Assembly (NCBI GenBank): GCA_902797855.1
Contig: CADBUI010000013.1
Coordinates: 1-55,021 of the forward strand
Length of the DNA: 55,021 nucleotides
Reading direction: 5' to 3'
Source of the DNA: an uncultured Erysipelotrichaceae bacterium
GTDB lineage: Bacteria > Bacillota_I > Bacilli_A > RFN20 > CAG-826
The notes under the pieces were generated by a model, which saw only the letters and a program-made list of their open reading frames with translations, did not search any database and was not told the origin of the DNA. Shown here one piece after another: positions 7,932 through 48,330 of this stretch. The first letter of the stretch is position 1. Each line of letters begins with the position of its first letter. A program made the translations under genes and the position numbers.

Positions 7932-8004
7932 AACTTTTCTCTCCTTTAGCAACTAAATTAAAAATCATGTATAATTTTTATGCACTGAACTTGTCAGAAT
8001 TATT

Positions 8005-26878: not shown

Positions 26879-26893
26879 TTTATTAGCCTCCTA

Positions 26894-29802: not shown

Positions 29803-29815
29803 AATTACCTCCTTT

Positions 29816-31105: not shown

Positions 31106-31117
31106 TGCTTTACCTCC

Positions 31118-31573
31118 TTATGCCACCCAAATGCCATATAAATTGAGAACATTGCTTTGGAAATAATCTGTTTCAAAGTCCCAAAGTTTAGATGTATCAA
31201 TACATGTTGGATATTGGCTATATCCTAAGAAATGTGGGTATAAAGGATCTGCGGCTTTTGAATCATCTAAAAGTGCTTCAGTTGGGCAAGAACCTAAAGG
31301 TTTAAGCATAGTCCAAGACAACTTATAGATGTATTCAGGAACGACTGTTGTAGATCCATCTGGATTTTTAATATCGTTTGTTGGATCATCCGAATGAGAA
31401 TAATCAAGGTAGAAATAAACAGTCATTGGAAGTTCTTCACCTGGATCATCCTCTGAAGGCTGATCAGCGTCATCTTCTTCTGGATATGGGATTCTAGGTT
31501 CATAAGTATATGAAGTCGCACATCCTGCTAGAAGTGGGAACAATAGAGTTAATAAATAGAATTGTTTCTTCAT
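31118..31573 (-). CDS. Lipoprotein of unknown function in the maltodextrin operon
   Basis: The 151-residue protein has a lipobox LLAGC with Cys18. An acidic Pro/Glu/Asp linker (about 26-50) is followed by a small domain rich in Tyr, Trp and Asp (VYFYLDYSHSDD, YPHFLGYSQYPTC, FETDYFQSN). No family is recognised. It sits between pulA and malE, with an 11-12 base gap on each side, so it is co-transcribed with them. The aromatic-rich domain could help hold glucans, but this is inference from position. Confidence 0.75.
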   Translation of the reverse strand: MKKQFYLLTLLFPLLAGCATSYTYEPRIPYPEEDDADQPSEDDPGEELPMTVYFYLDYSHSDDPTNDIKNPDGSTTVVPEYIYKLSWTMLKPLGSCPTEALLDDSKAADPLYPHFLGYSQYPTCIDTSKLWDFETDYFQSNVLNLYGIWVA

Positions 31574-31585
31574 TTTATCTACCTC

Positions 31586-34500
31586 CTAATGTCCATGTCG
31601 GTCAAAGACCGCGCTTGATTGTTGTACGCCAAATTTAATTCCGCTAGAGGAAAGAGTGTAATTTCCATAATCAAACTTCTTCCAAGCTTCATTAACTTCG
31701 GATTTAATTAAATCTTCAGTGCCGATATTACCGCCACAAAGATAGATGAATGTTTCATTGATTTGGAATCCAATTGTATTTGCCCAGTCATCATCAGTCT
31801 TGGAGAAATAGATACCATTGGTGAGGGTTCTAGTATTTCCTGGGCTAACATAAGATTCAGCAAGGAAAGTCTCGTTTTCTTGAGTTGTTCCTCTCTTCTT
31901 AATCGTTTCAGCGTGCATTCTAACAAGTGATCTAAATGCCTCGTTATAATGGAATTCGTCATTTGTTAAAACTTCACCATCAATATTAACCGAAATCTTA
32001 TTGGTCCATTTAAATGTATTAACATTAGCAGGAGCGTTATATGAGTTATGGGAAATTCTATGTCCCCAAAGCTCAGTCCAGCTATCTGCTGTAACATAAG
32101 ATGGAATCTTATCCTCAGTTGGATATAAGTCTTTTGTGAATTCTTTTGTTCTAAGGAATTCTTCTCCACCAAGCATAAAGGCAGGTGTATTAGCAGACAT
32201 GACCATTGCATGTGCTGCAAGTGAACCTCTTAAAATGCGTTCTGCAGATGCGTGATGTACTTTACCATGCTCATCTTCATAATATGGAAGAGTTTGGAAA
32301 AGTTGATCTCTAACTGTCCAGTTATCGTGACAGCTAACATAGTTAACTGTTTGTTCTGGGAAATACATACCTTTGGTATGCATACCGTTTGTGTTAATTC
32401 CCCAAGCACCCTTAGCAATCTTATCAAGCATTGCAAAATCGGTGTACCAAGTTCCATTACTTTCCTTCCAGGAACCAAGTTGGAGGAATCCTTTATTTGG
32501 ATATGTTTTACCATCTCCACCTTTGTCCCCGTTAGTTCCTCTCATCGCGTCTCTAAAGGCGTCATTAAATCCGCCTAGATATACGCCACTAGTTTTGTAA
32601 TTATTACATTCGTTATAAACTTGCCAGGTGAATCCACCAAAGTTATGTGGATCTTCTGCTCCTGGATGCTCGGCTTTCCATTGGTCACTTCCTTCACCAT
32701 GATAGCCAAGTGCCCAACCTTCTCCATACATATAAATGTCTGGATCGATATCGTGAAGGGCTTCTTTAGCTTTCACAAGTGTCTTGAAGTCAATAAGACC
32801 CATAAGGTCAAAACGGAAACCTTTAATCTTATAATCAGTTGCCCACATGCAAAGTGAGTCAACAATGAATTTTCTCATCATTGGGCGTTCAGTTGCGACT
32901 TCGTTATGGCAACCAGAACCATCCCAAAGTTCACCTGCGCTCTGATACTTTTCACCTTTTTCGTTATAGTAGTCTTTACCAGCATAACGGAAATAGTATC
33001 TTGGCATAAGAGCATGGAAGTTACTACCAGTCGCAGAGCTAACATGGTTATAGACAACGTCCATAATTACTCTTGTGTGAACTTCTGTCTTAGACATCTC
33101 TAAAACAAGATTCTTAAATTCTCTAACTCTAGCTGCACCATCATGGATATCGCTAGAATAGCCACCTTCAACCACGTTGTAGTTAAGTGGGTTATAACCC
33201 CAGTTATATTTAAGTCCGTCAGTAGTTTCAGCAGTTGTTTCATCATTATCATGATCAAATACTGGCACTAATTGAACGGCTTTAACACCAAGTTCATCTA
33301 AGTGATCGTATCCAGCGGAGACAGTTGTTCCTGCAACATGTGCGCCACTTTCAACGAAAGCGTTATATGTTCCGCGTTTAGTGGTTTTTCCGTTCGCATT
33401 TTCCCAAGATGCATCACCTGTGAAGTCTTGAACATGAACTTCGTAGATTGATAAATCTTGTGGAGAATCGATATCAAGTCCCTTAGCGGTTTCTCCATCC
33501 CATTTAAGTGGAAGAGAATTCCAACCTTCTGGATTGGTAGATTCTTTATCGTAAATATAACCTCTAAGTCCATTTGCGCCTGCACTAGTAGCATATGGAT
33601 CCATAACGATATTGTTACCAAGAACGTTATCGATTTGATAGTTATAGTATTTACCTGCTAAATCACCATCAATGGTGAGTTCCCAAATACCACCAGAATG
33701 GTAGTGCATATGGTAACCCTCATATAAATCTGCAACTTCTTTTTCGTCTGCTTTTGCAAATTCTTTAGGTGTATCAATGTCATATAGCATGACAGTCATC
33801 TTAGCAGTGATAGGTGACCACACTCTAAATGTTGTGTGAGTTGGAGTGTAGGTTACACCAAATCTCTCATCATCCTTCTTTTGAGAGAAATTAATTGGTT
33901 CATAATGGTCATGGAAATATTTGGTTTCGTAGAGCTTATCATAACCAATTGTGACTGTTTTATTGAGTTTTGCCATCACTGGATCAATATCAGTGGATGG
34001 GTCATGAGTGACAAGAGAATAAACGAGGTTAATATGTGCTTTAAATGGAAGTGAAATTGTTGTGGTACCTCCAGTTGTAGAAGTAAGCGTACCTTCTTTA
34101 ACTAAATACCATTTTTCAACTTCCGCACGTCTTTTTGGTTTAATTTTGTAATAAGTTTCATCAAAAGCATAAAGTTTATAATTTGCTTTATTTGATGTAG
34201 ATGTAAATTGACAAGAAATAGTGTTCCAGTCTGTGAATTTTGCTAGTTGAATACCAGGAACTCTGGTTTGAGCTTCACTAGAAAGAATAGCGATACCTCC
34301 GCCAGCAGCTGGCATAGTCCAGACTTCACATACATCACTACCTTCTTCTGGTGGGAAGTCAGCGTAGACAAGTTGCATATCATCGCTTTGTCCACCCCAG
34401 TTAAGGTCGGTTGGACTTTTCATCTTGTATTTGATGATGAAATACATTTTTGATTTGCCAGCAAATTTAGCAAATCGTGGTGAGGTAAAATCGATGGTGA

Positions 34501-34879
34501 TGTTCATCATCTTACCGCCATCAGTGACATTAAAAATGTCAGAGGCGTTATCGAGATTATATTCAACACCATCTTCTCCTGTACACCAAAGATAGAATGC
34601 TCTTCCTTCATTCCCTCCAGCCTCATTATAGTAGTGGAGTTTAACTTTATTGACGATTACTTCAGGATCTTCTTCCTCCTCATCGTCACCTGCTCTTACT
34701 TTGTTAGAGACATCAGGGGCGCCAAGTTTAGCGTGCGTATTATCTTCGCTAATAAGAGCAGTATCCTCTTCTAAACTATCAAGAATTGGTTCAGAAAGAG
34801 ATTCAGCACTACAAGCTGACATGGCAAGAATGAAAAAGGAAGGTAACAAAGTCATTAGCGCTTTTTTGACTTTTTTCAT
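31586..34879 (-). CDS. pulA: Pullulanase (type I, GH13) lipoprotein
   Basis: This 1097-residue enzyme cleaves alpha-1,6 links of pullulan and branched starch. It is a lipoprotein (lipobox MSAC, Cys23). An N-terminal PUD/CBM41-like region starts near residue 75 (KLHYYNEAGG, FYLWC). A CBM48-type region follows (FGVTYTPTHTTFRVWSP). The GH13 domain has the pullulanase mark YNWGYNPLNY near 560, and the catalytic triad is Asp691 (GFRFDLMG), Glu720 (YGEGW) and Asp852 (SCHDNW). It opens the operon with malEFGK. A promoter with a palindrome lies just upstream, in the end of malQ. Confidence 0.94.
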   Translation of the reverse strand: MKKVKKALMTLLPSFFILAMSACSAESLSEPILDSLEEDTALISEDNTHAKLGAPDVSNKVRAGDDEEEEDPEVIVNKVKLHYYNEAGGNEGRAFYLWCTGEDGVEYNLDNASDIFNVTDGGKMMNITIDFTSPRFAKFAGKSKMYFIIKYKMKSPTDLNWGGQSDDMQLVYADFPPEEGSDVCEVWTMPAAGGGIAILSSEAQTRVPGIQLAKFTDWNTISCQFTSTSNKANYKLYAFDETYYKIKPKRRAEVEKWYLVKEGTLTSTTGGTTTISLPFKAHINLVYSLVTHDPSTDIDPVMAKLNKTVTIGYDKLYETKYFHDHYEPINFSQKKDDERFGVTYTPTHTTFRVWSPITAKMTVMLYDIDTPKEFAKADEKEVADLYEGYHMHYHSGGIWELTIDGDLAGKYYNYQIDNVLGNNIVMDPYATSAGANGLRGYIYDKESTNPEGWNSLPLKWDGETAKGLDIDSPQDLSIYEVHVQDFTGDASWENANGKTTKRGTYNAFVESGAHVAGTTVSAGYDHLDELGVKAVQLVPVFDHDNDETTAETTDGLKYNWGYNPLNYNVVEGGYSSDIHDGAARVREFKNLVLEMSKTEVHTRVIMDVVYNHVSSATGSNFHALMPRYYFRYAGKDYYNEKGEKYQSAGELWDGSGCHNEVATERPMMRKFIVDSLCMWATDYKIKGFRFDLMGLIDFKTLVKAKEALHDIDPDIYMYGEGWALGYHGEGSDQWKAEHPGAEDPHNFGGFTWQVYNECNNYKTSGVYLGGFNDAFRDAMRGTNGDKGGDGKTYPNKGFLQLGSWKESNGTWYTDFAMLDKIAKGAWGINTNGMHTKGMYFPEQTVNYVSCHDNWTVRDQLFQTLPYYEDEHGKVHHASAERILRGSLAAHAMVMSANTPAFMLGGEEFLRTKEFTKDLYPTEDKIPSYVTADSWTELWGHRISHNSYNAPANVNTFKWTNKISVNIDGEVLTNDEFHYNEAFRSLVRMHAETIKKRGTTQENETFLAESYVSPGNTRTLTNGIYFSKTDDDWANTIGFQINETFIYLCGGNIGTEDLIKSEVNEAWKKFDYGNYTLSSSGIKFGVQQSSAVFDRHGH

Positions 34880-34918
34880 AAGCTTTCCTCTTTTCTTAAA
34901 AGATTCTCTTGCAACTAT

Positions 34919-34947
34919 AGAATAACATTATGTTATTCGTTTGTAAA
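34919..34947 (-). promoter_or_regulatory. Promoter of the pulA-mal operon
   Basis: On the minus strand, TTTACA (complement of 34942-34947), a 17-base spacer, then TATTCT (complement of 34919-34924), 40 bases before the pulA ATG. The promoter lies across the malQ stop codon. Confidence 0.55.
34920..34938. promoter_or_regulatory. Perfect palindrome in the pulA promoter (candidate operator)
   Basis: GAATAACA-TTA-TGTTATTC, eight-base arms with a three-base centre. It fills the spacer and -10 of the predicted pulA promoter, as expected for a repressor site. As RNA it could also form a weak hairpin at the malQ stop, but no T-run follows. Confidence 0.6.
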
Positions 34948-36345
34948 TTTGACATTCTTCATCCAGGAAAAATCCCTAAATTTGAATGTCCAGTTAGGAT
35001 CACCAACTGTCCCTGGATAATTGATGCGAGCTTTATCATCAAGCATCAATAAATCCTGGAGTTGATATATTGTCATATAAGAAGGTAATGAAGCGATATA
35101 TTCGAATACTTTCTTATATAATCCCCGTTTTGTGTTGAACTTCTTAATAAGAAATTCTTTATTTTCTTTTGGTAGACTTTTTAGCCAACCATATAACGTT
35201 TGATTATCATGTGTTCCTGGATAGACAATTTGTCTATTTGTGGACATAGCATTTATGTCAAAGATAGTGAATTCAACTATGTACATTCCAGGAAGATTAT
35301 ATTTATCTCTAAGTTCTAGGACACTTGGGAATAAATCACCAAGGTCTTCGGCGATTAAATTAATGTTTGGATATTTCTTATATAAAGCATCAAAGAATTC
35401 TTCACGTGGACCTATTTCCCATTTGCCTCTTCTAGCGTTAGTGTCTTCGCTAGGAATGACACAATACGTATCAAATGCTCTAAAGTGATCAAGGCGGAGC
35501 ATATCACATGTACTTGCTAAATATCCAATACGATTAACGAGGAAAGAATAGTTATTTTCTTTCATCTTTTTAAAATCATATATTGGAGTGCCCCAAAGTT
35601 GACCATCATCACTAAAAGCATCAGGTGGGCATCCACTTACTAAAGTAGGATGATAATTCTCGTCCATAATAAATTCATCTTTATGTGTCCAACAATCAAC
35701 TGAATCAATTCCAACATAGAATGGACAATCAGCGATAATCAAAATCCCATTTTTATGAGCGAATTTCCTAAGTTTGTTATATTGCCTAAATGCAATAAAC
35801 TGCATAAATATTTCAAATTCGCATCTTTCTTTATATTCACTTGGAATATCATTATGTTCATCAAAATAGTTTTGCATCCATTTTGGCCAAGTATTCCACA
35901 CGGCATAATTTGTTTCTTTTCTAAAAACAATAAATAAGGCGTATTTTTTTAACCAAGGATTATCTTTTTTAAATTTTTGGTATCCTTTTAATGGTTTTTT
36001 GATGAATTTCTTAAATGCTTTAAAAAGATATTTTTCTTTAAAAAGCCTAACATCTTCATAATTTACTTTATTAGCCTTAGAGTGGTGGAGAGGTACTTTT
36101 TTAAGCAAACCTAAATCCACGAGTTCATCTAAGTTAATATATCTATTTTCAAGCGCTTCAGAACACGTGGACATATATGGAGAGTTTCCTGGTCCAAGTG
36201 GATTAAGTGGAAGTACTTGCCAATATTTATAATTATTCTTTTTTAGCCACTTCATGAATTTAAAAGAGGATGGACCAAAATCACCTATTCCATGTTTACC
36301 TGGAAGAGATGCGATTGGTAATAATATTCCTACGTTATTTTTCAT
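34933..36345 (-). CDS. malQ: 4-alpha-glucanotransferase (amylomaltase), GH77
   Basis: The enzyme moves glucan chains among maltodextrins in the cytoplasm. With 470 residues the length is normal. Motifs include GILLPIASLPGKHGIGDFG near the start, YWQVLPLNPLGPGNSPY, the nucleophile region MLRLDHFRAF, and LIAEDLGDL with the acid/base Glu, then YPGTHDNQTLYGW. I choose the ATG of MKNNVG; the longer frame would need TTG and lies in a hairpin. No clear Shine-Dalgarno sequence is seen. It follows the surface protein gene by 48 bases, with a hairpin between. Confidence 0.94.
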   Translation of the reverse strand: MKNNVGILLPIASLPGKHGIGDFGPSSFKFMKWLKKNNYKYWQVLPLNPLGPGNSPYMSTCSEALENRYINLDELVDLGLLKKVPLHHSKANKVNYEDVRLFKEKYLFKAFKKFIKKPLKGYQKFKKDNPWLKKYALFIVFRKETNYAVWNTWPKWMQNYFDEHNDIPSEYKERCEFEIFMQFIAFRQYNKLRKFAHKNGILIIADCPFYVGIDSVDCWTHKDEFIMDENYHPTLVSGCPPDAFSDDGQLWGTPIYDFKKMKENNYSFLVNRIGYLASTCDMLRLDHFRAFDTYCVIPSEDTNARRGKWEIGPREEFFDALYKKYPNINLIAEDLGDLFPSVLELRDKYNLPGMYIVEFTIFDINAMSTNRQIVYPGTHDNQTLYGWLKSLPKENKEFLIKKFNTKRGLYKKVFEYIASLPSYMTIYQLQDLLMLDDKARINYPGTVGDPNWTFKFRDFSWMKNVKFTNE

Positions 36346-36355
36346 AATAGTGTAA

Positions 36356-36377
36356 AGCGCCCACAATAGTGAGCGCT
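36356..36377 (-). terminator. Hairpin between surface protein gene and malQ (weak terminator or attenuator)
   Basis: On the minus strand, AGCGCTCAC-TATT-GTGGGCGCT with one G-U pair, followed by TTACACTATT. The T-run is short, so some read-through into malQ is likely. Confidence 0.6.
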
Positions 36378-36393
36378 ATTAAAATAATTTTAA

Positions 36394-38496
36394 TTAGTCG
36401 TGCTTACGAACTTTAAGGTAGACAACTGCACCAACAGATGTAATAGCAAGTACGCTAACACCAATAATAAGGATTAATGGTAAGTTGGTTTCATTGAAGA
36501 TTTGTGCAGCACCTGTGTATCTAGCACCAGAGATATTTCTTCCAAGGAAGTCATATCCAGTACTTAATTGTTTTGCGTGTCTATCTAAGACAACATCATA
36601 GAGATCGCTAAATGCAGCCAAGTCTTCATTAGAAGAACCATGTGAATCTTTAAGATGTTGTTGGATAGCTGCTTTTAATTCAGCAACGTCGCCACCTAAA
36701 GCAGCATAATTTGTCTTTTGGGTAGTCCAAGCATTATCAAGTGCAGTGATATCTGTAGTACCATCTTGCTTACAAACACCACCTTTTTGACCTTGGATAG
36801 CTTTTAAGAAGTTTTGAGCATATTCAATAGCTAAAGCTAAATCTTCAGAAACATCACCGAAATAGATTTCATCAGCGCCTGATTTGAGTTTTAGATAAAC
36901 TGCGCTTTGAACAGCTTTAGAAGCAACAATGTGTCCGCCACTTACTGTAAACGAGCCTTCGATTGTAGGAGCTTCGCTGTAATTAGTGATGTCAAATAAC
37001 ACTGCATATCCTGATGATGCTGTAGTATCAATTAAACGAACAACAGCGTTTTGAGCAAAGCTAAGAGATGATGAATAAAATTCTCTATAAGATGGATCAA
37101 GAGGATCTGGATTTTGAGTCATCTTATGATATACGTTATCAACTAATACGTGATATCCACCAACTTCCATGCCACCAACAAATAATGTTTTTGCGTTGAT
37201 ATCAATGTAGATTCTTGCTTGTGAAACGGTTGCGATTACATTTCCACTTGCATCAACGTTATTGTTACCGATAGCTTTTCTATTAAATGTAGTATCAGCA
37301 ACACCATTTTTTAAAACAGTAACGGATTGACCAGAAGTCAAATTAAGTAATGCAGTTTGGTATTCTGTACCAGTATTTAATGTTAGTGGATATGTTGTTG
37401 ATCCAACTTGAATTGTATATGGAAGAGTCCAACTTGGATTTTCAACACTATACCATCCACTTGTCGGGTTATAGTAGACGTCATATGTGCCAGCATTTGT
37501 TAACACAAGGTCATCGCCTACAACCTCAGTTGCAACCTCTGTTGAGGTATGAATTTTTGTTGCATCTGGATGATAGTAGGTTAAAGCGTTTCCTGATGTC
37601 GGGGTTTTAACAAATTGTAATTTTTGTCCTGCTGTTACTGTGACTGATTCAGCCTTGTAAGCTCCATCTCCAGTAGCAACACCTTCGACACCAGTCTTTG
37701 CATTCCAACCATTGAAATCACCAATTACGTAATATTTTTCTGGGGTGAATTGGCCAGCCCATAGTTTATTAGCAATTGTATCGAGGTAAATATATTCATC
37801 GAAATCTTCAGCTGCAACAAGTTGATTGGATGAATTCTTGTATACCTTTGTTAATTGATCATCATCTTTTGCATCGACAACATATGAGGCATCATCTTTC
37901 AAAAATGTTAGATAATCACCCTTTGATAGTGAAATTGAGGATGAAGTTGTGTATTCGGTTGCTGATCCAGAATTTCTAACCATTTGGACAGCTGTTCCAC
38001 CGTTAATTGAATACTTATATGTTGCCGGTTTTTCGATACCAAACGCCCATATACCATTGTTGTATGATGTAATATTTTTATCAAAATAAACGGTGTAGGT
38101 GCCAGCGGCTCTTGTTTCAAAGTTGTTGCCGGTACCTGCCTGGGTATAGGTTGTCCAACCCTTTCCGCTCCAGTCTAAATCGGCCCCATATCCTGCATTT
38201 AGTTCGATGCCACCATCCCAACTATTAACATTTTTTAGTTTGAACTTCACAGTAGACGCATCAGTGAATGTGTATTCGTATCTTGTTCCATCATCACTGA
38301 GTTCTAACTTGTTCCAAGTGTCCCAGTTTTGTCCATTGATAGTACCGATGATGTACCAAGTTGTGCCACATTCTGATCCACTCCAAGCATCAGCTTTGAT
38401 AATGTCTTTTACGTTTGCACTGAGTGCTGCGCCTAAAGCTAAAAACGCCGATAACGACAAAATCAGCCCGCCAGTAAATAATTTTTTATTTTTCAT
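36394..38496 (-). CDS. Membrane-anchored surface protein with carbohydrate-binding-type modules
   Basis: The 700-residue protein has an N-terminal signal (1-35), several beta-rich modules, and a C-terminal helix (about 672-694) with a short basic tail (KVRKHD), so it is held in the membrane by its C-terminus. The modules include WYIIGTINGQNWDTW near 47-61 and YYVIGDFNGWN near 265, the latter in the style of starch-binding CBM26/CBM48-type folds. An all-helical part follows near 570-650. There is no LPXTG and no hydrolase motif. It has its own promoter with an overlapping cre site and lies between amylase and malQ. Binding of starch at the cell surface is inferred. Confidence 0.78.
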   Translation of the reverse strand: MKNKKLFTGGLILSLSAFLALGAALSANVKDIIKADAWSGSECGTTWYIIGTINGQNWDTWNKLELSDDGTRYEYTFTDASTVKFKLKNVNSWDGGIELNAGYGADLDWSGKGWTTYTQAGTGNNFETRAAGTYTVYFDKNITSYNNGIWAFGIEKPATYKYSINGGTAVQMVRNSGSATEYTTSSSISLSKGDYLTFLKDDASYVVDAKDDDQLTKVYKNSSNQLVAAEDFDEYIYLDTIANKLWAGQFTPEKYYVIGDFNGWNAKTGVEGVATGDGAYKAESVTVTAGQKLQFVKTPTSGNALTYYHPDATKIHTSTEVATEVVGDDLVLTNAGTYDVYYNPTSGWYSVENPSWTLPYTIQVGSTTYPLTLNTGTEYQTALLNLTSGQSVTVLKNGVADTTFNRKAIGNNNVDASGNVIATVSQARIYIDINAKTLFVGGMEVGGYHVLVDNVYHKMTQNPDPLDPSYREFYSSSLSFAQNAVVRLIDTTASSGYAVLFDITNYSEAPTIEGSFTVSGGHIVASKAVQSAVYLKLKSGADEIYFGDVSEDLALAIEYAQNFLKAIQGQKGGVCKQDGTTDITALDNAWTTQKTNYAALGGDVAELKAAIQQHLKDSHGSSNEDLAAFSDLYDVVLDRHAKQLSTGYDFLGRNISGARYTGAAQIFNETNLPLILIIGVSVLAITSVGAVVYLKVRKHD

Positions 38497-38525
38497 ATTT
38501 TATCCCCCTAGGGAGCGCTTCACAA

Positions 38526-38539
38526 TGAATGCGCTTACA
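38526..38539 (-). promoter_or_regulatory. cre site (CcpA or related LacI-family) at the surface protein promoter
   Basis: The minus strand reads TGTAAGCGCATTCA, which fits TGNAANCGNWNNCW at every position. It covers about +1 to +14 relative to the predicted start, the position for repression. Confidence 0.7.
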
Positions 38540-38546
38540 TACCTAC

Positions 38547-38575
38547 ATTATACGCGCGTCGTGTCGCTTTGTTAA
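38547..38575 (-). promoter_or_regulatory. Promoter of the surface protein gene
   Basis: On the minus strand, TTAACA (complement of 38570-38575), a 17-base spacer, then TATAAT (complement of 38547-38552), giving a leader of about 45 bases with TAGGGGG before the ATG. Confidence 0.75.
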
Positions 38576-38615
38576 ATATTATTTAATGAAATTAATATAT
38601 AAAAAATAGTTCAAT

Positions 38616-38646
38616 AAAAAAATGGGTTCAAAACAGAACCCATTTT
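38616..38646 (-). terminator. Terminator after the amylase/lipoprotein operon
   Basis: AAAATGGGTTC (38619-38629) pairs perfectly with GAACCCATTTT (38636-38646); the minus strand continues into a T-run. Confidence 0.9.
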
Positions 38647-38660
38647 GTATCGATGTAGTC

Positions 38661-40271
38661 TTATGAAATTTGAGCGAATGTATAAGTGTACCAAGCATGA
38701 GACCAATCGTCAGAATTGTGTGCCCAAGCAGTCCAAGTAATAACGTATTCATGACCTGGTTGTAATGAGGTGACACCGCCTAAATAAACAGTAGAACTCA
38801 TCTCATCATAATTACCTTCGTTATGGTCACCGTTATTAACTGGATGGCGGTATTGATTAGATGTATTTACAAAGTACATATGAAGCTCACTAGTAGAAGT
38901 AGAGGATGTTATTGCTCTACGGTATTGACCCTTTGTAGCTTCCTCTCCACTTGTTAGTGTTGCAATGCCTAAATCAGCTTCAGTAAGTCCAATATGGACT
39001 TCTTTCATATCTCCCCATCCATTTACACCTGCAAAATAGACGACAATTTCATTAGAAATATCTTCAGGAATTGGTGTGCTATTTAAGCCAAAGTAAATCT
39101 TATTATCTTCATATTTTAATTTAATGTATATGTCGACATTGAAGTTTACTTTAACAGTGTAATAATCGCTTCCTTTATCTAGATAAGACATCCATTTTGT
39201 GTCAGTGTCACTTGTTCCTCCAAATGACCATCCATCAAGATTTTCAACCCATCCAGAAGAATATTCGAAGTCATAAATTTTAAACTTCTGTCCAACAGCG
39301 AAATCTTGTCCAGAAATAAGATATTGTTCACGACCTTCAGGGTCTTGTTCAGATTGTTTAACTCCTACAATCTTATCACCATTATCAAAGATGAGACCGA
39401 ATCCAGTTTCTGGGGCTACGTCTCCGCCATCAATTGGTGGATTAGAGTCAGTTCTTTGGAAATAGATAAGATTATCTTCAAACTGCATTTTAAGATATAC
39501 GTCTGCAGTAAAATCAGCTTTTACAACATACGTTGAAGCGGTCTTTTCGACGTATTTTTGCCAGTAGACTGACGCAGCGTGAGTGCCACCAAATGAATAT
39601 GGATCTAAGTCTTCGGTCCAACCTGCTTTATTTTGGAAATCGTATAAGACAAATCTATCACCAGTCTTAAATGGATAGTTAGTAATCTTATACTGAGTCC
39701 TTCCTTGCGCATCTTTTTCTTCTAATAAGGTTGCAGCAACATAACTAGAATCAGTGAAATAGAAACCGAAACCAGATTTTGGCATTCCATCATCTGGTGT
39801 TGGAGTTGGATCGACTCCGCCTCCTGATCCATTTCCGCCTGAGAATTTAGCATATAAAATCATGCCATCAACAGCTGGAACTGAGTTATAGCGTTTAGTC
39901 GCTCCAGTTCCTTCGTAAGACTGCCAATATTCAAATGTTGAACCAGCAGTGGAGCTGATTTCATCAGCTTTTGGTAAATCTGTACCGACATCAGCCTCAT
40001 AGGTTAACGTATTTTCTAGATATAATTTTTCAACTGCTGTACCAGGATTTCCACGATATCTACCATATTCACCTAAAACAAGATAAGTTGTGACTTTACC
40101 TGTTACTGGTGTTGGTGGTACTGGTGGCTCTGGAGTTGGAGTTGGCTCTGGAGATGGTTCTGGTGTAGGTGTTGGATCATTTGGATTAACCATGTCTCGG
40201 CCGTTATACATTACACAGCCTGAAAGGATCATTGCTGCTAGTGGGAGAAATAACATTATTTTCTTATTCAT
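38661..40271 (-). CDS. Lipoprotein with tandem starch-binding-like modules
   Basis: The 536-residue protein has lipobox MILSGC (Cys19), a Pro/Thr/Glu linker of TPEP units (about 30-58), then a Flg_new-like stretch (FEYWQSYEGTG, GMILYAKFSGG). Two close repeats of about 120 residues follow, about 165-285 and 290-405. Each begins GFGF or GFGL, has GxRFVLYDFQNKAGW or GQKFKIYDFEYSSGW and YSFGGT or WSFGGT, and ends in KMQFEDNLIYF or KLKYEDNKIYF. A last beta domain starts IVVYFAGVNGWGD. These look like carbohydrate-binding modules of the CBM26/SusE-like kind, from pattern and context. It is co-transcribed behind the amylase gene (12 bases apart). Confidence 0.78.
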   Translation of the reverse strand: MNKKIMLFLPLAAMILSGCVMYNGRDMVNPNDPTPTPEPSPEPTPTPEPPVPPTPVTGKVTTYLVLGEYGRYRGNPGTAVEKLYLENTLTYEADVGTDLPKADEISSTAGSTFEYWQSYEGTGATKRYNSVPAVDGMILYAKFSGGNGSGGGVDPTPTPDDGMPKSGFGFYFTDSSYVAATLLEEKDAQGRTQYKITNYPFKTGDRFVLYDFQNKAGWTEDLDPYSFGGTHAASVYWQKYVEKTASTYVVKADFTADVYLKMQFEDNLIYFQRTDSNPPIDGGDVAPETGFGLIFDNGDKIVGVKQSEQDPEGREQYLISGQDFAVGQKFKIYDFEYSSGWVENLDGWSFGGTSDTDTKWMSYLDKGSDYYTVKVNFNVDIYIKLKYEDNKIYFGLNSTPIPEDISNEIVVYFAGVNGWGDMKEVHIGLTEADLGIATLTSGEEATKGQYRRAITSSTSTSELHMYFVNTSNQYRHPVNNGDHNEGNYDEMSSTVYLGGVTSLQPGHEYVITWTAWAHNSDDWSHAWYTYTFAQIS

Positions 40272-40283
40272 AAGTTTTTCCTC

Positions 40284-42869
40284 CTAATTATTAAGCCCAA
40301 AGACAGAGATACCAAATTTAGTTGAACCAATATCTCCATCCTTATCAGATGGGCCTCCATTAATAGATTTCTTAAATGTTAGATTTGCACCAGCAATATA
40401 GTCTGGGTTCATAGTGTAGCTACTATTAGAAGTACCAGTGTTAATGTAAATCACTAATTTTGGATTATATGAAGCATCATCAACACGAATAACCATGACA
40501 TGATTACCACTTGTTGGATGATATGTGATTCTTGCATCTTTTGGATACATCTTCTTCACTTCAATTACTTGCTTATAGAAATTAAGCATTGAATTATCCA
40601 TTGAAGCTTGCTCTTCCATATTAGGAAGGAGTTTATTATATTCATCAAGCTCAAAGGTATATTGACCAGATTTATAGTTTGGTCTAAGTGCAGTATTTGA
40701 CCATAGGAATGGTTGACGATACCAAATATCTTCACAGTTCTCGCTTCCGTATTTAGCGATATGTTGATCAGTATTTGATGACATACCAAGTTCATCACCA
40801 TAATAAATCCATGATATACCTCTATTAAGTAAGGTAACTGCAGCATGGATTTTAGCGCGGTTAATTTGATCTCCGCTTCCATCAATCTTCGTTGATGGAG
40901 TAGTGCCATCGACGGTACCAGATGAGAAGTTAACTTGGTTAATTGCTCTCATAACGTCGTGGTTAGAGGTGAATGCACCATCGATGAAGTCAGGTCTATG
41001 ACCTCCAGGGACACTCATAGATTTTCCATCTAGTTCGACATAATTAGATGTTGAATATACATCAAATGATTCACTAGCTTGTTTACTAGCAAATGTAGAT
41101 GCTCCTCCAGAACTAGCATATAAGTATGCTGGAATATGATAGTAGTGGGAGAAGGAGAATTGAGAATCTAAACCTTGGTAGTATGCAGCGGTTTGTTTAC
41201 CCCAACCATCAAAGTTTTCACCAACTAAGAAGCAGTTTGGATAATCTGCTTTTAAGGCGTTAGAGAAATCTTTCCACCAAGTAACATTTTTCGTTAGGTT
41301 AGATGAATAGTCGAAATCTTTTGGAATATATTCACCTTTTTCATCATCATAAGCTCGTTTTGTGCCTGTATCAGTGATGACGATATCGCCTGGATAGTCA
41401 TCATGAGCAGGTTCATAACATTCATCTCTCATAAAGATGTGCTTAACAGCATCAAGTCTAAAGCCATCAAGACCAAAGCTCATCCAATATTTCGCCATAT
41501 CGATGACAAGTTGACGTGTTTTAGCGTTTTGATAGTTAATTTCAGGCATTCCGCTTCCAAATTTACCATAGTAATAGTAATTTGATTCACCATCTCTATA
41601 CCAAGATGGGTTATCGCTTAATGCATCTTGTTCAACGGTAATTGTTTGATAACTACCATTGATATATTTCTCAATTGGGTCATCTTTATACTTCCATGAA
41701 TAGACGTCTCTCCATTCATTCTTAGTTCCATCTTCATTAACACCCCATTGAGAATTAGTGAACCAGACATTGCCTTTAGAGGTATGGTTAAGGACTAAGT
41801 CCATAATAACTTTCATACCTTTCTTATGGGCTTTATAAATAAGTTCACGATAATCTTCAATTGTTCCGAATTTCTTATCAACTGCGTAATAGTCAGAAAT
41901 ATCATAGGCATGATAAGAATCAGATTTTTGAATTGGAGTGAGCCATAGGACTTCCACTCCTAAGTCAGATAAATAATCTAATGAATCAATAACACCTCTA
42001 AGATCACCTAAGCCATCGCCATTAGAATCTCTAAAGCTAGCGACAAAGATTTGATATCCGACTCCTAAATCTTTAAATGAATCACTTGTTCCTGGAACTT
42101 TATATGAATCAGGATAATGTGAATCAGTTGAAGAGGAATATTTTCCAGTTGAATCTTGTTCAATTGGATTAACTCTCGCAGTTGGTATACCACTTCCTGC
42201 GAAATATTTAGTTTGATCTAATGAACCGGTAGTAGCAAAGACGTGCACAGCTTTACCACCAGTTACAGCTCTCCAGTTGCTATCAAGATTAAAATTACTA
42301 ATATAGTTTTCACGGCCACCATCACTTGTCCAGTTGGTGCTTCCATCCATTGAGGATTGTTTAACCATTAAGAATCCAAGTTCTTTAGCACCTTCATAAG
42401 TAGTGGACATTCCACTTTTTCCACCTACTAGACCAGCTTTATATAAATCGACATCAGCGATAACTCCATAATTATCGGAATATACGCCGCTACCTTCATT
42501 TCCTTTACCAACATCTTCAAATGTCATCCATGAGGTAGACATTGGTTTTAGTCTAAGTTTAGTGGAAACTTGAGGATTTCCTGAAAATGCCCATAACGCA
42601 CCCTCTAAATCTTGAGGAGCGTATTGCCATAGCCATAAACAAAAATTCTCATAACCTTTTTTATCTCCACGGTTATAGTGGAAATATAAGTGATTAGGTT
42701 TTGAGAAGGTATTGCACCAGGCATCATATTTATCACCCTCTTCGCTAGATGGGTTGTCACCAGGATCAACAGGAGTTGGTTCAGGAGGATTGTCTTTTCC
42801 ATTATTAGTGACGCATCCACCAAGAAGGAGAGTAGGCAAAAGAGCAAAAATAAATAATTTTTTATTCAT
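40284..42869 (-). CDS. Secreted alpha-amylase lipoprotein, GH13
   Basis: The 861-residue enzyme hydrolyses alpha-1,4-glucan outside the cell. Its lipobox is LLLGGC with Cys19. An N-terminal region (LYFHYNRGDKKGYENFCLWLW) resembles the first domain of the pullulanase here. The GH13 barrel starts GYQIFVASFRDSNGDGLGD. The triad is Asp473 (GFRLDAVKH), Glu551 (VGENFD) and Asp638 (TSNHDV), with VIMDLVLNHTS as region I. Specificity between amylase and neopullulanase/oligo-glucosidase is not settled by sequence. It is first in a two-gene operon, with TAAGGA as ribosome-binding site. Confidence 0.92.
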   Translation of the reverse strand: MNKKLFIFALLPTLLLGGCVTNNGKDNPPEPTPVDPGDNPSSEEGDKYDAWCNTFSKPNHLYFHYNRGDKKGYENFCLWLWQYAPQDLEGALWAFSGNPQVSTKLRLKPMSTSWMTFEDVGKGNEGSGVYSDNYGVIADVDLYKAGLVGGKSGMSTTYEGAKELGFLMVKQSSMDGSTNWTSDGGRENYISNFNLDSNWRAVTGGKAVHVFATTGSLDQTKYFAGSGIPTARVNPIEQDSTGKYSSSTDSHYPDSYKVPGTSDSFKDLGVGYQIFVASFRDSNGDGLGDLRGVIDSLDYLSDLGVEVLWLTPIQKSDSYHAYDISDYYAVDKKFGTIEDYRELIYKAHKKGMKVIMDLVLNHTSKGNVWFTNSQWGVNEDGTKNEWRDVYSWKYKDDPIEKYINGSYQTITVEQDALSDNPSWYRDGESNYYYYGKFGSGMPEINYQNAKTRQLVIDMAKYWMSFGLDGFRLDAVKHIFMRDECYEPAHDDYPGDIVITDTGTKRAYDDEKGEYIPKDFDYSSNLTKNVTWWKDFSNALKADYPNCFLVGENFDGWGKQTAAYYQGLDSQFSFSHYYHIPAYLYASSGGASTFASKQASESFDVYSTSNYVELDGKSMSVPGGHRPDFIDGAFTSNHDVMRAINQVNFSSGTVDGTTPSTKIDGSGDQINRAKIHAAVTLLNRGISWIYYGDELGMSSNTDQHIAKYGSENCEDIWYRQPFLWSNTALRPNYKSGQYTFELDEYNKLLPNMEEQASMDNSMLNFYKQVIEVKKMYPKDARITYHPTSGNHVMVIRVDDASYNPKLVIYINTGTSNSSYTMNPDYIAGANLTFKKSINGGPSDKDGDIGSTKFGISVFGLNN

Positions 42870-43090: not shown

Positions 43091-43696
43091 ATGGACAAGA
43101 AAATATTAAGTATCTCCTTAGCAACTCTACTTGGATTAGGCGTGGCTATTGGAGCATTAACATTAGATGGTAATAAATTACTCGTTAATGCAGAAAGCAG
43201 CCTTGAAAAATATATTTTAATTGATGCAAGCACAGTTACTAACATTGAAGGCAACGATTCTGATAATGTTCATTTCGATGTAGCTACAAAATGTGCTTTT
43301 GACACTGATTTAGATTTTGAAATTAAAGGCTTAAGTGCGCTTTGTATTTATGAAGGCACAACCTCATTTCATATCGGCGGAACAGATTTATTTACCGTTA
43401 CTACAAACAACAATTCCAAACAGTGGTATGTTGAAGGTGTTGCAGAGCTACTTCACATAAATGATAGTTTCACAAAAGTTAGTTATAGTTACACATATTC
43501 ATTCGCTAACGAAGAAAAAAGTGGAGAATATGTTTTTAATCGAGAAGTATTAGCGGCTAGAAGCTTTTTTAGATATGATTCAGAATATGATATTGATTAT
43601 GTCACTTGTTACACTGATAACAATTATTTTGAAGAAGCCGATGAGAATGTTAGAAACATTAGAATTCACGAAATAAAACTATTCTATACTTGCTAA
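43091..43696 (+). CDS. Small exported protein of unknown function, paralogue of 45341-45925
   Basis: The 201-residue protein has a signal segment (about 4-26: ISLATLLGLGVAIGALTL) with no lipobox and then a beta-rich domain. It contains few Lys and many Asp, Thr and Tyr, a GGTDLFTVTT turn near residue 98, and ends IRIHEIKLFYTC. The protein at 45341-45925 has the same length, the same signal layout, a GGSSIFSVTS turn at the same place, and ends ITINKITVYYYC, so the two are paralogues. They flank the fatty acid isomerase-like gene. No family recognised. Confidence 0.8.
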   Translation: MDKKILSISLATLLGLGVAIGALTLDGNKLLVNAESSLEKYILIDASTVTNIEGNDSDNVHFDVATKCAFDTDLDFEIKGLSALCIYEGTTSFHIGGTDLFTVTTNNNSKQWYVEGVAELLHINDSFTKVSYSYTYSFANEEKSGEYVFNREVLAARSFFRYDSEYDIDYVTCYTDNNYFEEADENVRNIRIHEIKLFYTC

Positions 43697-43759: not shown

Positions 43760-45220
43760 TTAGAAGAATCTATTGATAAGATCTTTACTTGCAGCACATG
43801 TATCTTCCATATCACCAAATGAGATAATTTCACCGGCGTAGAAGGTATTCTTGTTACCTTGAAGTGCTTCAAGTTTATCATACCAACCATCAGCGTAATC
43901 TTTGCTTGAAACGTGTGGACAATAATAGACTTCTTGAGCGTATAACTTCTCTTTAATTGGGAAGCCGACTTTCTTCATATCTTCATCCATTGTCTTCATC
44001 ACAACATCATAATCAACATCTGGTGTACCAGTGTGATTTGCGAGTGCGTAGACTGTGCATGGACAATCGTTTTCAAGATATTGCCATCTATTGTAATAGA
44101 CCATCGCGTGTCCAAGTTTTTCTGGCACCATGTTTTCCACTAGATAACCAGAGATGACTGGGCTCTTACCTTCTTCAAATGTTGCGATATAATCGCAGTA
44201 TCTTTCGTGGATGATCTTAGAGAATAATTCTGCTTCTTCTTTGGTAGCATCAGCGTATTTTGCGAAGTAATCAAGAGGTGTAGTAACGATGAGTTTATCG
44301 AATTCTTCTTTCTTTTGTTTTCCGTCTTTACCTTTAACAGTAACGATGACTTTACCATCTGGACGTTCAACTTTCACAACTTCTGTTTCTAAGATAGCTG
44401 GATGCATTAGTTTCTTATTGACGTGTTCATAGATTTGTTGAGTACCATCTTGCCATGTCCAAAGCTTCATATTAACGAATTCAAGTGCAGTGGTGACGTC
44501 AAGATATTTCATGACAAGCGCGGCTGGAATTTCATCAAAGAAGCCGTAGCCAAATGATGTGAATGGTGCGATCCAAATTCTTTGAACTTCTTCAACACCA
44601 TTGATCTTACAGAATTCAGCGAATGGAAGCGCTAAATCTTTTAGATTTGGGTTTGTACCCTTAATATAATTTGGGAATGAATTTTCTTTGGTTGCTCCGC
44701 AGTATCCATCAACACCTTTAGAGATACCATAGTATTCACCTTTAGCGATACCAAGGTGTCCATAGCAGTCATAACCCACATATTTTGTTTGCATGAGTTT
44801 ATTAAGCTTCTTCATTTGTTTTTTGAGCTTAAGTAAACCGCTAAGTTTCTTGAATGAGAAATTGACTTTTGGTTCAAATGGATGATCAACTTCACCAGTG
44901 GTCTTACGGAATTCTCTTCTCATATTTGGTTCACCAGGTTTGAAGTCTGGACCTTTATGATAGTAACCACCGAATTCTTCCATTTCACTAACAGCGTGAT
45001 AGGTAATAGCACCCATAATCGCGCCTGTTTCGAATGATTTTTCTTCTTCAACACCATTATGTTTAACTTTGATTAATGGTGAATAGCATTTGCCACCTAC
45101 TTTATTAAGTTTTTCGTAGATGACATAGTTTTTGTATCCTTTTTTCTCAAGATACATTGCAGCAGAAAGACCAGCTGGGCCTCCGCCGATAATACAAATT
45201 TTTTCGTCTAAATTTGCCAT
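43760..45220 (-). CDS. FAD-dependent fatty acid double-bond isomerase-like protein (PAI type, amine oxidase fold)
   Basis: The 486-residue flavoprotein opens with the dinucleotide-binding motif IIGGGPAGLSAAMYLEKKG and VIYEKLNKVGGKC. Segments such as TKYVGYDCYGH, PFTSFGYGFFDEIPAA, LWTWQDGTQ, AMVYYNRW, HVSSKDYADGWYDKLE and NTFYAGEIISFGD match my memory of the Cutibacterium (Propionibacterium) acnes polyunsaturated fatty acid isomerase, which turns linoleic acid into 10E,12Z-conjugated linoleic acid. An insertion (about 130-150) is Lys/Leu-rich. No signal peptide. I use the ATG of MANLDEK, with AAAGAGGG upstream. The substrate is not proven. Confidence 0.8.
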   Translation of the reverse strand: MANLDEKICIIGGGPAGLSAAMYLEKKGYKNYVIYEKLNKVGGKCYSPLIKVKHNGVEEEKSFETGAIMGAITYHAVSEMEEFGGYYHKGPDFKPGEPNMRREFRKTTGEVDHPFEPKVNFSFKKLSGLLKLKKQMKKLNKLMQTKYVGYDCYGHLGIAKGEYYGISKGVDGYCGATKENSFPNYIKGTNPNLKDLALPFAEFCKINGVEEVQRIWIAPFTSFGYGFFDEIPAALVMKYLDVTTALEFVNMKLWTWQDGTQQIYEHVNKKLMHPAILETEVVKVERPDGKVIVTVKGKDGKQKKEEFDKLIVTTPLDYFAKYADATKEEAELFSKIIHERYCDYIATFEEGKSPVISGYLVENMVPEKLGHAMVYYNRWQYLENDCPCTVYALANHTGTPDVDYDVVMKTMDEDMKKVGFPIKEKLYAQEVYYCPHVSSKDYADGWYDKLEALQGNKNTFYAGEIISFGDMEDTCAASKDLINRFF

Positions 45221-45340
45221 TTTTAAATGATTCCCTCTTTCCTTTCGGTTGATTTTATTATAACACCAGTTATTAGTTATTTTCATAGTATTTATTAAAA
45301 TATTTTCCTATAATAGAAACATAATCTTAGGGGGATTAGT

Positions 45341-45925
45341 ATGAATAAGAAAATTGCGATTATATCTGCTGTTACTTTAGGTGTTGCTTGTTTGACCGTT
45401 GGCGCTATTGTCGGCACAAATAATCAATTATTAACATCTACTCGAGGAAATGCTGGTAGTGAACTAACAATTGAATTCACTGCTGATAACGTCGTTCCTG
45501 AATTGACTGATATTTCAGACTATCAGGCTGATTTCTATCTTTCAGCTAAACCATTTTATGATAAGACACACGACTACGACATTGTTTGTAGAGTTAGTAA
45601 CGATCAGGTGAGGACAATAACTGTTGGTGGTAGTTCTATTTTTTCTGTAACTTCTGATTATTTCTGGGGATTTAATTTCTTTGGAACTTTAGATAATGTG
45701 GGTAATGGTTTTTCAAAAGTTAACTTTACTGGCACATACATTGACACAGATAGTTCTGTTAAAAATATTTATATCACTAATGATAGAAATAGTAGTGAAG
45801 TAACTTTTAAATATGATTCTGCAACCGACCACACTCAGTTTGACGTTTACGAAACTTCCTATACCACTGGAAATAAAAATATCACAATCAACAAAATAAC
45901 AGTTTATTATTACTGCTATCAATAA
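45341..45925 (+). CDS. Small exported protein of unknown function, paralogue of 43091-43696
   Basis: The 194-residue protein has a signal segment (about 5-26) without lipobox, and a beta-rich domain with the GGSSIFSVTS turn and the ending ITINKITVYYYCYQ. The promoter -10 TATAAT lies at 45309-45314 and TTAGGGGG serves as ribosome-binding site. It is divergent from the isomerase-like gene and followed by its own terminator. Function unknown. Confidence 0.8.
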   Translation: MNKKIAIISAVTLGVACLTVGAIVGTNNQLLTSTRGNAGSELTIEFTADNVVPELTDISDYQADFYLSAKPFYDKTHDYDIVCRVSNDQVRTITVGGSSIFSVTSDYFWGFNFFGTLDNVGNGFSKVNFTGTYIDTDSSVKNIYITNDRNSSEVTFKYDSATDHTQFDVYETSYTTGNKNITINKITVYYYCYQ

Positions 45926-46251: not shown

Positions 46252-48330
46252 TTATTTCTTTGTTAATGTAAGTGTTGCGGTGTAACCTTCAAGAGTTTTG
46301 AAGATGTTATCAACACTAACTTCCCAGCCAAGATCAATTCCGCTATCAAGTTTACCAACATTAACGAATTGATTCTTGAATTTTTCCATCGTGAAGGTGT
46401 CACCTATCTTAAAGAAATGATTCTTACGAATGGAATTACTTTCACTAAATGTATAAGAGGTATCATTACGAATCTGGAATAATTCCACATATTGATCGTA
46501 TTCAGCTAATCCATATCCATATTGATTTGGACTATTCTCTGTAATTTGAGCGATGTTATTTAGCTTTGCGTTTGAATGAGGTTCACTATGAACAGTTGGT
46601 GAAGTGATTGATGAAACTCTAGCATCAACGTGCCAAATTCTAATACCAACTTCAGCGATATCATCAGGGGAGCCTCCGCTTCCTCTAACAACAGGATAAT
46701 CAATCGCACGGAATTTATTTAGTCCATATGGTGTATATAAATCAATGAGGATATATTCATCAAATGGTGAATCATAATCGTTCCAATGAGGAGAAAGAAT
46801 GATACAATCATTCGAAGATTCTAAATCGTTGATATCAAGTGTAATTGTGTCATCTGGAATATATGGATCTGCCCAGTTATATAGCATTCTTGAATATGAT
46901 TCATGAGATACACTTGATTCATCTTGCATGGTGTAGCCACCCGCGAACTTTTGCGAGGTTGAGTATGAATAATAGTCATTTAAACCAAGCATATGTCCAG
47001 ATTCATGAATGAATGTGGAGGTATGTAGATTAACAGGGATGTGGCCATTTCCGCTATGAGCAGGTTCACTATAGTTGCTCTTTCCTGTTCTTTCTAAAGC
47101 TTTTTCATTACTTTGATAGAGGAAATCATAAGAAACCCACATATGCCTACCCATACCTGGTTTAGATGTGTTAGGAGTTAGTGAACTGGAGGCAATAACT
47201 GACGCCCACATATTTTGACCTTCTGTACCTAGTGAGCCAGTGGATCTATCTAATGAACCATAAACAAAGCACACTCCATCAAGGAATCCATCGTGATCAT
47301 AGTCATAATCTTGTCTATTTTCAGTTGGATTAGAGGTGAAATACCATTCAACAGCGTCTTTACAGATTTGGAGTGATTGAGTGTAGGCATCATAAGATGA
47401 CTTACCTGAAACATACCAGTCACTAACCTTACCAGTGATATTAAGTAGACCTAGTGATTCAAGATAGTAATAGGATTTAACACTATAGTATCCATTTGAA
47501 GTACCTTCACCAAAGAAGACACTATTAATATCTTCCTTAACATTCGCGTAGTTAGAAATATATGTATCACTATTAGTGAACTTAATAGGAATAATAAGCA
47601 TCTTAGGAGTGCCTTTAGTAGGTAATCCAGTATTGTGCATCCCAAATTCATTTCTATTTAAATCAGTCACACTTGCTTCCAATTTAACTTTTTCATTTGC
47701 TTCTTCTTCAGTAACAATTTGAATTTGTTTGGTTAAAGACTTAGTAACTCCATTTAGAGAATATGAAATGGTGATGTTATAGTTACCTAGTGTAGTGGTG
47801 TCAACTTGAGTTGAATCAACTGTAGGCACTATTGGTTCTTCATATCCGGTTTGATATTTCGCATATACAGTTCCTCTAAAGACAAAGTCTTTGTTAACTG
47901 CATATTTCGTTTTCATTTTGATAACTGAAATTGATCTAAGTTCTTTTTGAACAACTTTAACATGGCATTTAAGGACCATTGAACCAGTTCCAGCAATGTC
48001 ATAGACAATATCACATTCTCCAACATTTAAAGGAGTGACCAAACCAGCATTTGTGACACTTGCAACATTTGGATCAGTGCTTGTTATTGTTGAACCAGGA
48101 ATATATCTAGTGACATTATCGTATTTATCTTCTTCACTAGTGGAATCTTTTGGATATAGATAAATGGTGAATTCTTCACCAGCAACAACAGTTTTAGATG
48201 TGTAGTTAAGTTTATATGAAGAGTTTGTTAAAACATTTTGAAGTCTATCAAGTAGACCGCATCCACTCACAAATACCGGAGCGGAGAAGACAAGAAGTGC
48301 GCTTAAAACAATTGAATATTTATTTTTCAT
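46252..48330 (-). CDS. M6-family metalloprotease lipoprotein with Ig-like domains
   Basis: The 692-residue protein has a lipobox (VSGC, Cys24). Residues about 38-125 form a bacterial Ig-like domain (ITSTDPNVASVTNAG), and about 128-205 a second (LRSISVIKMKTKYAVNKDF, Big_3 style). The peptidase domain carries HESGHMLGLNDYY with zinc ligands His442 and His446 and catalytic Glu443, as in the immune-inhibitor-A-like M6 family. A beta C-terminal part follows. It should cut proteins outside the cell. A TATTAT box ends 6 bases before the ATG on the minus strand and there is no Shine-Dalgarno, so the transcript may be leaderless. Confidence 0.9.
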   Translation of the reverse strand: MKNKYSIVLSALLVFSAPVFVSGCGLLDRLQNVLTNSSYKLNYTSKTVVAGEEFTIYLYPKDSTSEEDKYDNVTRYIPGSTITSTDPNVASVTNAGLVTPLNVGECDIVYDIAGTGSMVLKCHVKVVQKELRSISVIKMKTKYAVNKDFVFRGTVYAKYQTGYEEPIVPTVDSTQVDTTTLGNYNITISYSLNGVTKSLTKQIQIVTEEEANEKVKLEASVTDLNRNEFGMHNTGLPTKGTPKMLIIPIKFTNSDTYISNYANVKEDINSVFFGEGTSNGYYSVKSYYYLESLGLLNITGKVSDWYVSGKSSYDAYTQSLQICKDAVEWYFTSNPTENRQDYDYDHDGFLDGVCFVYGSLDRSTGSLGTEGQNMWASVIASSSLTPNTSKPGMGRHMWVSYDFLYQSNEKALERTGKSNYSEPAHSGNGHIPVNLHTSTFIHESGHMLGLNDYYSYSTSQKFAGGYTMQDESSVSHESYSRMLYNWADPYIPDDTITLDINDLESSNDCIILSPHWNDYDSPFDEYILIDLYTPYGLNKFRAIDYPVVRGSGGSPDDIAEVGIRIWHVDARVSSITSPTVHSEPHSNAKLNNIAQITENSPNQYGYGLAEYDQYVELFQIRNDTSYTFSESNSIRKNHFFKIGDTFTMEKFKNQFVNVGKLDSGIDLGWEVSVDNIFKTLEGYTATLTLTKK

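Follow-up and report, generated by a model that had tools for sequence, protein, structure and literature searches.

Can the protein encoded by a solitary gene in this window, by which we mean the whole stretch of 55,021 nucleotides analysed here, isomerize polyunsaturated fatty acids (PUFA), and, if so, what would become of the conjugated product? The original prediction had identified it, from a set of sequence motifs, as an FAD-dependent relative of the polyunsaturated fatty acid isomerase (PAI) of Cutibacterium acnes and as a candidate producer of conjugated linoleic acid (CLA).

Family, fold and substrate-site residues

The gene consists of a minus-strand ORF of 486 codons followed by a stop (Table 1). 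ORF finding returned a longer version that begins with an ATG at 45286, upstream of the ATG at 45220. We prefer the latter start, because the ATG at 45286 lies inside a promoter-like site, while that at 45220 is preceded, about 12 nt upstream, by a likely ribosome-binding site (AAAGGAAAGAGGG) and is the point at which the BLAST alignments of the relatives begin.

When the PDB was searched with phmmer, C. acnes PAI (2b9w) was by far the best solved relative (E 5.9e-104, the next solved protein reaching 2e-6), and BLAST found 195 of 485 residues to be identical (40%) at 99% coverage. The motifs that had prompted the original prediction are present and align with those of PAI (TKYVGYDCYGH with TKYQGYDANGH, LWTWQDGTQ with LWTWADGTQ, and HVSSKDYADGWYDKLE with HVSSEDYKAGWYEKVE); the PDB entry cited there was the right one, and the identity exceeds the roughly 25% that had been named as a lower limit. 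A template-free AF2 model computed from a diverse alignment reached a pLDDT of 90; it superseded a first model, from a less diverse alignment, that had a pLDDT of 74 and rendered the substrate site poorly. The top PDB match of this model was 2b9w (E 3e-52, TM 0.95 on the target), and the next one had a TM of 0.79.

Arg102 and Phe248 of the window protein are the equivalents of PAI Arg88 and Phe193, the residues that we take to make PAI prefer the free acid, so that the Arg/Phe pair to which attention had been drawn at the outset is intact. Arg88 was kept in every full-length member tested and Phe193 in all of them except L209. Homology, these residues, the three-domain FAD fold and its close superposition thus agree that the protein is a member of the PAI family, and it very probably has isomerase activity. 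PAI is said, in work by Liavonchanka et al. from 2006 and 2009, to move a hydrogen from C11 to C9 via FAD. For the window protein, the sequence would fit a 10E,12Z as well as a 9Z,11E product, and hence a trans-10 as well as a trans-11 route.

We considered the possibility that the protein is an amine oxidase, or another oxidase of the PF01593 superfamily, that merely resembles PAI. Its only Pfam label is indeed Amino_oxidase, from that superfamily, and it reaches no NCBIfam equivalog cut-off. Yet the match to PAI is about 98 orders of magnitude better than that to any oxidase, and the gap between the first and second structural matches points the same way, making an oxidase very improbable. 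The 'linoleate isomerases' of the oleate hydratase/MCRA type, from lactobacilli and bifidobacteria, are likewise FAD proteins that act on linoleic acid, but they form a separate family, PF06100, which was not among the Pfam matches of the window protein; none was found in the window's genome, which rules out MCRA as its isomerase.

The window protein differs from PAI (2b9w and five sister entries) in the organism of origin and in a number of inserts. The largest, of about 37 residues, follows PAI residue 134 and is shorter by at least 9 residues in a clade of about 68% identity; the others are smaller, one of them adding about 15 residues.

The isomerase gene stands singly between two plus-strand genes, which encode secreted-type proteins that are 27% identical to one another (E 2e-10), match no Pfam or NCBIfam entry and are of unknown family. 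Their opposite orientation, their secreted nature and the lack of a Pfam match rule them out as operon partners. Beyond them lie a gene for a secreted protein with an M6-metalloprotease-like domain, which has no Pfam match, and an apparent cluster for the uptake and breakdown of alpha-glucans, comprising an ABC transporter with a MalK-type ATPase, a binding protein, a 4-alpha-glucanotransferase, a CBM48 protein and an alpha-amylase-type lipoprotein. DegV and a FadD-type protein, which had been put forward as a sign that fatty acids are handled, are both encoded in the window, but more than 30 kb from the isomerase gene; being generic as well, they offer weak support and were dropped from the argument.

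Table 1. Features of the window and, in the last four lines, of contig C6 of the same genome
Feature	Position	Strand	Basis
PAI-family fatty acid double-bond isomerase, 486 aa	43760..45220	-	homology, predicted fold
Likely ribosome-binding site, AAAGGAAAGAGGG	45233..45245	-	spacing to ATG
Promoter-like ATGAAA-18-TATAAT with TG extension	45257..45286	-	match to consensus alone; such sites more numerous in shuffles
FAD-binding GGGPAG, residues 12-17, Rossmann dinucleotide fold	45170..45187	-	aligned to PAI GAGPAG; NAD_binding_8 match
Arg102, equivalent of PAI Arg88 (carboxylate/free-acid site)	44915..44917	-	92/92 aligned sequences; invariant down to 22% identity
Phe248, equivalent of PAI Phe193	44477..44479	-	92/92 aligned sequences; at least 90% in wide set; Met in L209
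Stretch of ~37 residues (157-193), absent from PAI (~4 residues there)	44642..44752	-	alignment
Secreted-type protein	43091-43696	+	
Secreted-type protein	45341-45925	+	
Secreted protein, M6-metalloprotease-like domain	46252-48330	-	NCBIfam TIGR03296, E 1e-14 (below cut-off)
Apparent cluster for uptake and breakdown of alpha-glucan	25634-42869	-	
DegV	7071-7952	-	
AMP-binding/FadD-type protein	12179-13801	+	
HypB	C6 3707-4381		
IsrA-type reductase, putative	C6 4383-7292		
HypA	C6 7285-7629		
HypB, second copy	C6 7666-8337		

A recurrent partner set beside PAI-family genes

Clustering of the proteins encoded around PAI loci revealed one recurrent set, made up of HypB-type GTPases, an FAD/Fe-S flavoprotein of about 960 residues and HypA. 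The flavoprotein contains Fer4, dihydropyrimidine-dehydrogenase domain II and an NfnA/GltD-like FAD/NAD(P)H domain; in the close homologues L069 and L037, Pfam gave the order N-terminal Cys domain, Fer4, Fer4_20, Pyr_redox_2, Fer4, and the motifs of these domains are also found in the copy of the window's genome. The same domains and the same HypA and HypB neighbours characterize IsrA, a putative isoprene reductase of Acetobacterium wieringae, 73% of whose homologues lie near HypA and 56% near HypB (PMC10134865). IsrA has CxC motifs at 180 and 254 and its next Fer4 at 289 (PMC10134865), and the window genome's copy has them at 222, 296 and 331, which gives identical spacings of 74 and 35. In domain order, in this spacing and in its HypA and HypB neighbours the copy fits clade 9 of IsrA, a group of putative diene reductases. 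This likeness, established by comparing domains and motifs, goes along with differences: the partner is about 60 residues longer than IsrA and adjoins a fatty acid isomerase, with no known link to isoprene.

In the window's genome a complete HypB-IsrA-HypA-HypB set is present (G000:C6:3707-8337), on a contig other than that of the PAI gene and not joined to it. No [NiFe]-hydrogenase large subunit (PF00374) was found in this genome or in 30 relatives, which rules out a role of HypA and HypB in the maturation of such a hydrogenase; they therefore probably serve the IsrA-type enzyme. Relatives carry this set next to the isomerase gene, and the genome itself carries it elsewhere, which makes for a much stronger context than DegV and FadD. 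As an observation the original prediction is confirmed, and as an interpretation it is partly supported: it had the family right, the product it named, 10E,12Z-CLA, is a candidate, and it underestimated the context.

In 25 of 77 loci, a gene for an IsrA-type protein, HypA or HypB lay within about 1 kb of the PAI gene. We counted at least nine different gene orders, and on the PAI tree adjacency underwent a minimum of eight changes of state. Among 395 genomes of the window's class (Bacilli), 29 had an IsrA-type gene, and so did all 11 that carried a PAI-family gene. After this result a second sample was drawn afresh, as a prospective test, from the Clostridia-side class of genome G068 (391 genomes); it contained 5 genomes with a PAI-family gene and 36 with an IsrA-type gene, and all 5 had both. 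The corresponding p-values (4e-14 and 5e-6) are optimistic, since Fisher tests treat genomes as independent, and a shared habitat could account for some of the co-occurrence. IsrA-type genes had an overall prevalence of 7-9% across the two samples and were common without PAI (18 of 29 genomes in Bacilli, 31 of 36 in the fresh sample), which means that the dependence runs one way and that there are further partners or substrates for IsrA.

Stronger evidence than these p-values comes from adjacency in genomes that are not related to one another. In four of the five genomes of the fresh sample (G068, G672, G751 and G513, the last of which keeps only a PAI remnant) the PAI gene lay within 4 kb of the IsrA-type gene. 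In G142, which belongs to a different family, a PAI of 30% identity sits directly beside HypB-IsrA-HypA on a 3.2-Mb contig, and in G151 a PAI-family protein of 23% identity is encoded close to the set.

These arrangements bear on a simpler explanation, namely that the protein is a plain PAI-type linoleate isomerase acting alone, with CLA as an end product that is excreted or enters lipid, and that the linkage to an unrelated IsrA set stems from the joint transfer of redox genes between anaerobes of the gut. C. acnes PAI does release CLA (PMC2885616), and no IsrA set is near most PAI loci (52 of 77), that of the window included. Against this stand the recurrence of the adjacency, with differing gene orders, in unrelated genomes whose PAI is as divergent as 23-30% (G142, G151, G672 and G751), and the fact that no other neighbour family was found to recur across clades around the PAI loci. 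We consider this explanation rather unlikely, while still the most serious of those that compete with a coupling of the two enzymes.

Habitat and horizontal transfer

The 80 nearest loci in named genomes all come from uncultured-bacterium records, nearly all of them labelled as MAGs. The titles of 53 point to a ruminant gut, the other 27 being silent and none naming another host; 24 of the 53 mention goat, roe deer, water buffalo or reindeer or carry an RGIG label, and 29 are RUG or RUI isolates, names that we take to denote the rumen. The organism had been placed in the gut, which stands, although probably ruminant gut puts it better. The enzyme had also been thought rarely described outside a few genera. 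This was not borne out, as many uncultured Bacilli and Clostridia of the rumen carry the gene, and PAI-like genes have already been reported in 7 of 228 rumen MAGs (Lachnospiraceae, Oscillospiraceae and unclassified; BLAST, at least 40% identity; PMC10019597), so that the enzyme as such is not new. Those genes belong to the same family and come from the same habitat, and they were reported without a reductase partner; the reduced-genome Bacilli lineage of the window is not among the groups just listed.

Within the window's class the distribution is patchy, a close PAI homologue being present in 10 of 395 genomes. We judged relatedness by RpoB identity rather than by record titles, since L110, titled Gammaproteobacteria, proved to belong to the window's own class. 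PAI of the window's genome shared 82-87% identity with that of several other genomes, whereas RpoB shared only 46-52%; for G068 the values were 86% and 50%, and for G007, of the same genus as the window's genome, 92% and 79%. That PAI is far more conserved than RpoB indicates, at the level of sequence comparison, that the gene has moved horizontally between distant lineages. Single MAGs may be mis-binned, but as a general explanation this is unlikely, because eight MAGs (L062, L065-L070 and L101) have one distinctive arrangement in common. Plasmid carriage was ruled out as the route, the plasmid collection yielding a single match, of 29% identity, from Photobacterium.

In the divergent PAI loci (22-30% identity), a transposase-like helix-turn-helix protein of 331-361 residues is encoded directly upstream of the PAI-like gene (L150:6118-7203, L207:9906-10973, L209:9990-11027 and L151:11165-12160); it could bear on the spread of the gene or be a regulator. 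In one roe deer MAG, two loci (L042 and L112, on JAFUXB010000005.1 and JAFUXB010000004.1) encode identical PAI proteins in the same neighbourhood, which reflects either a large duplication or an assembly artefact.

A proposed two-step pathway and its possible substrates

Genome context inclines us, with some reserve, towards a coupled reading, in which PAI makes a conjugated diene that the IsrA-type enzyme reduces. The flavoenzyme would bind the carboxylate of a free C18 PUFA, exogenous linoleate or linolenate, through Arg102 and Phe248, use FAD to move a hydrogen within the pentadiene, and release the conjugated diene (CLA). An IsrA-type FAD/Fe-S reductase, possibly containing nickel and assisted by the HypA/HypB chaperones, would then convert this diene, its putative substrate, to a trans-monoene, with NAD(P)H or ferredoxin as the electron donor. 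The pair would in this way remove toxic, bactericidal PUFA and consume reducing equivalents. No ketoacyl synthase was found in the window's genome (1.1 Mb) or in ten relatives, and these organisms therefore probably depend on outside fatty acids; the pathway, if real, would explain how such a small genome copes with toxic dietary PUFA.

Hydrogenation of unfunctionalised conjugated C=C bonds has been put forward as the activity of IsrA homologues, and those of A. woodii and A. fimetarium lie beside an oleate hydratase, which is itself a fatty-acid enzyme (PMC10134865). Strain Y, a related isolate, reduces conjugated dienes but not compounds with a single double bond (PMC9765523). Fatty acids are not mentioned in the latter paper and the word isomerase is absent from the former, and a search of open-access journal papers found no earlier report of a PAI-IsrA link.

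The same fold and hydride chemistry might instead serve a different compound whose double bonds are methylene-interrupted or conjugated, such as a bacterial lipid, an isoprenoid, linolenate or a longer PUFA, rather than linoleate. The identity to PAI of only 40% and the two larger inserts leave room for this, as do the links of the wider family, which lead to a reductase originally described for isoprene and, in certain genomes, to polyene-acting proteins of the CrtI type. It is made improbable by the family-wide retention of the residues tied to the binding of free fatty acids and by the habitat, a ruminant gut in which free linoleic and linolenic acid abound.

The fat of milk and meat is determined by biohydrogenation in the rumen, the trans-10 route of which is linked to milk fat depression. 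A CLA reductase of B. fibrisolvens was reportedly sequenced in 2007 by Fukuda et al. There is disagreement over the organisms behind the trans-10 shift (PMC9853040). Returning to the coupled reading, we are evenly divided on its broadest form, that the isomerase and the nickel-chaperone-dependent diene reductase constitute a horizontally shared two-step PUFA biohydrogenation of rumen Bacilli and Clostridia, that conjugated fatty acids are a natural substrate of the IsrA family, and that the pair represents ruminal, perhaps trans-10, biohydrogenation genes. If true, it would supply a concrete and assayable gene pair, in uncultured rumen lineages, for a process whose organisms and reductase genes are unsettled, the two genes being candidates for a step long missing from ruminal fat hydrogenation. 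It would also provide a likely physiological substrate for IsrA, a family that is widespread but still orphan.

A second pairing was observed in G708 and G050, where the PAI gene (63% identical to C. acnes PAI in G708) is followed by genes for an NAD(P)H/2Fe-2S reductase and for a flavoprotein of the CrtI family, a type that acts on polyenes. In G513 the CrtI/reductase pair, the PAI remnant and the IsrA set lie side by side, and L106 has CrtI- and FNR-like genes nearby. The loci with a CrtI/phytoene-desaturase-like and an NAD(P)H-FAD-2Fe-2S protein are L131:8072-12309 (G050), L206:1157-5258 (G708), L208:1610-8931 (G513) and L106:1307-4080. The CrtI-type pair may be an alternative or additional reductase, forming a second, saturase-type route for conjugated fatty acids.
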